This document shows, piece after piece, positions 20,545-21,260 of a stretch of 56,240 nt of DNA. Origin of the DNA: Nitrospirota bacterium (GTDB lineage Bacteria; Nitrospirota; Thermodesulfovibrionia; UBA6902); the NCBI GenBank assembly GCA_016222915.1, contig JACRQA010000085.1:1-56240 (forward strand). Reading direction: 5' to 3'. A model generated the notes under the pieces. That model ran no database searches, had not been told where the DNA came from, and saw only the letters and a program-made list of their open reading frames with translations. How positions within the stretch are numbered: position 1 is the first letter of the stretch; each line of letters opens with the position of its first letter. A program made the translations under genes and the position numbers.

Positions 20545-20634
20545 AAGACGGGTTACAGTTTAATATCAGCAATCGCCCGGACCCTTAAATTTTGAGGTAC
20601 GGCGCCAACAATAGAAACCAATGGAGGAACAGTC

Positions 20635-21210
20635 ATGAAAGACAAAATAGTTTGGGAAACTGTGATGAACAATGCCCTGGGAAGGGCGGAACGGGAAGAC
20701 AAATTCATATTGCTCGACTTCTATAACCCCGGCTGAATAGGCTGTCAACAGATGGATGCAGTTACGTATCCTGATCCTAAGGTCGTCAGTTTCATAAATC
20801 AGCATTTCATTCCGCTAAGGCTGCCGCATGATGCGAAACCATATGCCCAGGAGTTCAACATTCACTGGACGCCGAGCATACTTGTACTGGACAAAAAGCG
20901 GAACGAGCACCACCGGACAATGGGCTTTCTGGCCCCGGATGATTTTATTCCATCGCTTTATATCGCCATTGGGAAGGCCTCGTTCGATTCCGAGAATGTC
21001 GACAAGGCCCTCGTATATTTTGACAATCTGCTTACCGAGTATCCGAAGAGCGATTTCGTGCCCCAGGTTATTTATCTCCAGGGCGTCAGCAGGTATAAAA
21101 GCACCCATGATCCGAAGCCTCTCAGAGAGGCCTATGACAAACTCAGCGCAAATTATCCCGCAAACTACTGGACCAAAAGAGCGTATCCGTACCGGCTGAT
21201 AAATGCATGA
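20635..21210 (+). CDS. Thioredoxin-like selenoprotein (UxxC), in-frame UGA read as selenocysteine
   Basis: 191 residues if UGA at 20734-20736 is read as Sec. From ATG 20635 (RBS GGAGGA) the frame reads LLDFYNPG-U-IGCQQMDAVTYPDPKVVSFI, so Sec34 takes the first position of a thioredoxin CxxC motif (U-I-G-C). The thioredoxin fold continues with the cis-Pro loop HWTPSILVLD near residue 85. A C-terminal TPR-like segment (residues 120-185) contains ALVYFDNLLTEYPKS and PQVIYLQGVSRYK. The downstream ATG at 20752 would delete the active site and has no RBS. Probable thiol or peroxide redox enzyme. A bacterial SECIS hairpin is expected just after the UGA; I see only a weak candidate (GCTGT/GCAGT arms at 20741-20764). 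Confidence 0.85.
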
Positions 21211-21230
21211 AATATTGTGTGTGAATGTGA

Positions 21231-21258
21231 GCAGGGGCATGGCGCGCCATGCCCCTGC
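21231..21258. repeat. Palindromic repeat (GGGGCATGGC family), right side of selenoprotein gene
   Basis: Outer GCA/TGC plus arms GGGGCATGGC and GCCATGCCCC around GC, a perfect 28-bp palindrome. It sits in the convergent gap between the selenoprotein gene and the NmrA-like gene and is identical in its central 22 bp to 22172-22193 and 39973-39994. Confidence 0.9.
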
Positions 21259-21260
21259 AT

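Follow-up and report, generated by a model that had tools for sequence, protein, structure and literature searches.

The stretch of DNA analysed here, hereafter the window, is 56,240 nucleotides long and belongs to a Nitrospirota bacterium (assembly GCA_016222915.1, contig JACRQA010000085.1). On its forward strand lies a gene for a protein of 191 residues whose reading frame contains one internal UGA. The features of this gene are as follows:

20623..20627, + strand: Shine-Dalgarno-like GGAGG, read directly, with a 7 nt spacer to the ATG at 20635
20635..21210, + strand: predicted selenoprotein coding sequence, complete, 191 aa with Sec at 34, translated with TGA as U
20689..20949, + strand: Thioredoxin_2-like domain, residues 19-105 (PF13098 at 45.7 bits, cut-off 27)
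20734..20736, + strand: in-frame UGA, the predicted Sec codon, residue 34 and first position of UxxC; a conserved TGA among homologues, with Cys in the rest
20754..20771, + strand: SECIS-like hairpin GGAUGC-AGUUAC-GUAUCC, 23 nt from UGA to loop, marked by pairing conservation, covariation and synonymous-codon conservation
20953..21207, + strand: helical, TPR-like C-terminal tail, approximately residues 107-191 (weak PF13174 and PF13525 matches below cut-off; CpoB 6g5s at 7.6e-5)

An earlier note on this DNA had placed the start at ATG 20635 behind a clean ribosome-binding site, and a single UGA at codon 34 in the first position of a CxxC motif; the ribosome-binding site was found as described and the coordinates were exact. 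With the UGA read as U, the motif is NPG-U-IGC-QQM, and C37 is encoded by TGT at 20743-20745. The terminal codon of the predicted coding sequence is itself a UGA (21208-21210). Shortly after it, at positions 21218-21259 of the window, there is a strong GC-rich inverted repeat, possibly a transcription terminator, where 54 nt folded reach -27.7 kcal/mol. A mechanical scan of the rest of the window, judged by eye, revealed no in-frame-UGA candidate that was equally convincing.

PF13098 was the best Pfam match of the N-terminal part, and PF13899 and PF03190 likewise scored over their cut-offs for a thioredoxin-like domain. Solved structures matched by sequence included 2kuc and DsbD gamma domains. 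In the alignments U34 and C37 take the position of the CxxC of 2kuc and DsbD gamma, and U34 is aligned with the first Cys of the CxxC in 2kuc, DsbD gamma and 3f9u. The full thioredoxin fold claimed by the earlier note is borne out by these matches; for the helical tail claimed alongside it, the resemblance to TPR was weak, PF13174 scoring 20.6 bits where the cut-off is 26.3. AlphaFold2 run on five sequences gave a mean pLDDT of 41.5, a model too poor for use. No signal peptide was evident by eye at the N-terminus (MKDKIVWETVM), suggesting that the protein is probably cytosolic. The gene is flanked by cytochrome-oxidase genes upstream and by NmrA and ferritin genes downstream. This gene order is shared with the homologous locus L017 of the same genus and almost nothing of it is kept in L018-L020, and since it is kept only within the genus, the context points to no functional partner.

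A contig search found four other Nitrospirota MAG contigs matching over near full length (DeMMO3_26, SURF_66, SURF_11 and SURF_45; L017-L020), whose frames are 93, 84, 65 and 61% identical in protein sequence, respectively, and each contain the same single TGA. A search of the phylum returned matches in 107 of 396 genomes, many of the weaker ones covering only part of other thioredoxin-domain proteins. The UGA was conserved together with the whole frame in approximately 20 further Nitrospirota genomes, at protein identities of 29-94%, and the homologues also cover the stretch that precedes and surrounds the UxxC motif. The 30 best-placed homologous loci were then inspected codon by codon. The Sec column was TGA in 23 of them and TGC or TGT in the other 7, with no other residue at any locus. 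Five of the seven Cys forms are full-length homologues of one family, f24, from genomes without a selA match. The remaining two (G130 and G048) come from genomes in which selA is present, indicating that loss of the machinery is not required for the Cys form. A shorter group of homologues (L052, L053 and L055), which is without the TPR-like tail, also has a UGA at UxxC and a similar hairpin.

The hairpin starts 17 nt past the UGA. According to published bSECIS criteria (PMC13188914), the loop should be 3-9 nt with a G in its first two positions, the stem 4-16 bp, the UGA-to-loop distance 16-37 nt and the MFE -7.5 or lower. All of these values were within range here, with a loop of 6 nt (G at position 2), a stem of 6 bp, a spacing of 23 nt and a folding energy of -8.6 to -11.1 kcal/mol, depending on the segment folded. 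An Rfam search of the local region gave no match. In a control on the single sequence, 6% of synonymous recodings formed all six pairs and 30% folded at least as stably. A lone hairpin, its energy included, is thus not exceptional, and the case for a SECIS element rests on conservation and covariation across sequences.

Across an alignment of 20 UGA-bearing sequences, from which three homologues of family f18 (L047-L049) were left out, 98.3% of the pair cells were kept, compared to 90.0 +/- 1.4 in shuffles. The covariation score was 0.363 against 0.201 +/- 0.026 for shuffled alignments, and none of 500 shuffles scored as high. Sliding the partner strand along the alignment lowered the pairing to 21-60%. 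Compensatory double changes were observed at two pairs, with G22-C37 (alignment columns) becoming A-U in 8 sequences and U24-A35 becoming A-U in 3, although such changes probably reflect few independent events; one pair was broken in 2 of the 20 sequences. The Cys homologues kept 1-4 of the 6 pairs in the same columns. Codon usage was constrained at the same place. Among the nine closest homologues, synonymous codon identity was 0.66 in codons 35-48 compared to 0.45 over the gene, the codons of V43, T44 and Y45 were invariant, and the 14-codon window with the highest synonymous conservation began at codon 36, placing the gene's peak at the hairpin. The earlier note had proposed a bSECIS check of the 60 nt after the UGA, and a hairpin that follows the published rules and covaries was found there. 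The hairpin was absent from the three f18 homologues, which have a different predicted fold with a loop beginning with G approximately 17 nt past the UGA. This hairpin, nearer to the UGA, suggests that the shape of the SECIS changed within the family.

Genes for selenocysteine synthesis and insertion were found in the same genome. selA (582 bits) and selB (329 bits), both over cut-off, lie in tandem on a 5-kb contig (C4) that terminates within the selB frame. selD (327 bits, over cut-off; G000:C90:13920-14828, minus strand, L023) has one in-frame UGA of its own, in GGUAAK, and is thereby itself a predicted selenoprotein gene. A formate dehydrogenase (1394 bits; G000:C132:4782-7967) carries its UGA in ARI-U-HSPT, the canonical U-H-x-P site, and two formate-dehydrogenase-like genes contain one in-frame TGA each (C46:3833-4558 and C178:2208-2933); judged by sequence, these three are probable further selenoproteins. 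Hence, of the Sec genes that the earlier note proposed to look for, selA, selB and selD were present. selC was not found in the genome's own 227-contig, 94%-complete bin, either with a tRNA-Sec model or with a same-genus selC sequence as the query, and the eight best places for RF01852 in this genome were other tRNAs (identified by ARAGORN as Leu, Ser, Trp, Asp and others). The same-genus query did find selC in three genomes of the genus (G366, G209 and G368), and its absence from the bin is likely to be an assembly or binning loss. The selC of G209 is at a contig end. That of G366 adjoins what is probably an integrated element, and assemblies could break there. In this region of G366 (G366:C8:46900-58400, L070) the last 31 nt of selC occur a second time at a distance of approximately 10.8 kb from the complete gene, and between the copies is an ORF (L070:6598-7599, minus strand) that by eye resembles a tyrosine recombinase, which suggests an element integrated at the selC 3' end. 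Shorter selC fragments were also observed in G368 and G209.

Co-occurrence of the UGA with the machinery is a blunt test, as most genomes of the class gave a selA match. There was none in four genomes that have the UGA (G326, G352, G142 and G211); selB was found in two of them and selC in one. G352 had no match to selA, selB or selC, yet contains a formate-dehydrogenase-like gene with one TGA. We read these selA gaps as assembly gaps.

Collectively, the Cys homologues, the hairpin and the presence of selA, selB and selD support the selenoprotein interpretation advanced in the earlier note. That note had also named two observations that would speak against it, a genome without Sec machinery and homologues lacking the segment around the UxxC, and neither was seen. 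From the sequence evidence we regard it as highly probable that this is a real selenoprotein gene. The UGA at codon 34 would be decoded by SelB-carried Sec-tRNA(Sec), with the hairpin at 20754-20771 directing the predicted Sec insertion. The product would be a thiol/disulfide oxidoreductase of the thioredoxin-like type; in its U-x-x-C active site, Sec34 would be the attacking residue and Cys37 the resolving residue. It probably acts as a reductase in the cytosol, a location and redox direction that we infer, and its TPR-like tail is likely to hold a putative partner protein. It is rather unlikely, but deserves weight, that the main role of the selenoprotein lies beyond general disulfide reduction, for example in reducing peroxides, selenite or metals, or in acting as a chaperone reductase guided by its TPR-like part. 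Room for such a role is left by the tail, for which there is no explanation, and by the lack of any gene neighbourhood conserved beyond the genus that would indicate a partner, but a UxxC in a DsbD-gamma/Thioredoxin_2 domain suits thiol/disulfide exchange.

It is very improbable that the UGA is a real stop, leaving either a decaying or truncated thioredoxin or a functional product made from ATG 20752. A table-11 ORF caller does open the gene at 20752, 15 nt past the UGA, in agreement with the claim that standard calling would begin there and lose the active site. However, direct reading of the sequence upstream of this ATG revealed no Shine-Dalgarno-like sequence, and a product starting there would miss both active-site residues. 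The UGA with intact flanking frames also recurs in approximately 20 other genomes, down to ~30% identity. In addition, the coding constraint on codons 2-33 is the same as that on the remainder. Over codons 1-33, substitutions at codon positions 1, 2 and 3 numbered 1, 2 and 13 relative to L017, and 2, 2 and 16 relative to L018, and on either side of the UGA the differences from both fall mostly at third positions. This shared bias, like the conservation of the UGA, shows that the frame across it is not due to chance.

DNA shows a frame and not the residue inserted, so the UGA could in principle be decoded as another amino acid, through a reassigned code or Trp or Gly readthrough. We consider this more improbable still, because the gene itself terminates in UGA, Cys is the only other residue at the column, and a Sec-specific hairpin is accompanied by selA, selB and selD. 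A sequencing error, or a mutation that altered a Cys codon (TGC/TGT) in one strain, conceivable for contigs from metagenome assemblies, is refuted for practical purposes by the TGA at this codon in independent assemblies from many genera.

The selenoprotein reading places the gene near several known systems. A predicted selenoprotein with a UxxC in PF13098 (Thioredoxin_2), termed a 'thiol:disulfide interchange protein' with WP_011366075.1 as its representative, is listed in Table 1 of a 2026 review (PMC13188914). The Nitrospirota protein has the same Pfam domain as its best match, the U-x-x-C motif and a predicted bacterial SECIS mechanism; it has in addition a TPR-like C-terminal tail, the likeness being one of domain and motif. 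It resembles the gamma domain of DsbD, the C-terminal thioredoxin domain of this protein-disulfide reductase, over residues 9-105 with the CxxC in the same place. In contrast to DsbD, it is without the membrane part, scores far under the cut-off of the DsbD model (37 against 330 bits) and has Sec instead of the first Cys. The best NCBIfam match was TsoB, a rhodanese/DsbD fusion-like selenoprotein (NF045694), to whose DsbD-gamma-like end (the C-terminal part only) the similarity is confined; with 39.3 bits against a cut-off of 805 and no rhodanese part, the protein is not TsoB. Weak N-terminal similarity was found to other thioredoxin-like selenoproteins, VPGUxxT (NF041382 and NF041383) and Trx7/PDZ (NF041199), all with scores an order of magnitude under their cut-offs. 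The motif here is NPGUxxC rather than VPGUxxT, and the scores of 23.2 against 275 bits (NF041382) and 13.6 against 350 bits (NF041383) likewise place it outside that group.

None of the curated NCBIfam selenoprotein models fits the lineage of this protein, those for TsoB, VPGUxxT and Trx7/PDZ being far below cut-off. As PF13098 UxxC selenoproteins are already catalogued, the protein appears to be an unlisted representative of a known type. A limited search of open-licence papers found no published report of a Nitrospirota UxxC selenoprotein family. We propose, only tentatively, that the protein and its relatives form a Nitrospirota selenoprotein family not yet catalogued, which would be defined by a cytosolic UxxC thioredoxin-like domain with a TPR-like tail, a SECIS under strong conservation, the replacement of Sec by Cys in relatives that lack selA, and a shorter tail-less group with the UGA.

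The finding leaves the understanding of selenocysteine decoding unchanged. Its homologue set, in which the Cys forms of f24 belong to genomes without selA, offers a clear example from nature of Sec/Cys exchange. In many Nitrospirota genomes the gene has probably been mis-annotated, truncated at the position equivalent to 20752 with its active site lost, and the redox proteins of this Nitrospirota subsurface lineage are in that case undercounted. If the relatives do form an uncatalogued family, these bacteria may have a dedicated selenium-dependent reductase that recognises particular partners via its tail.
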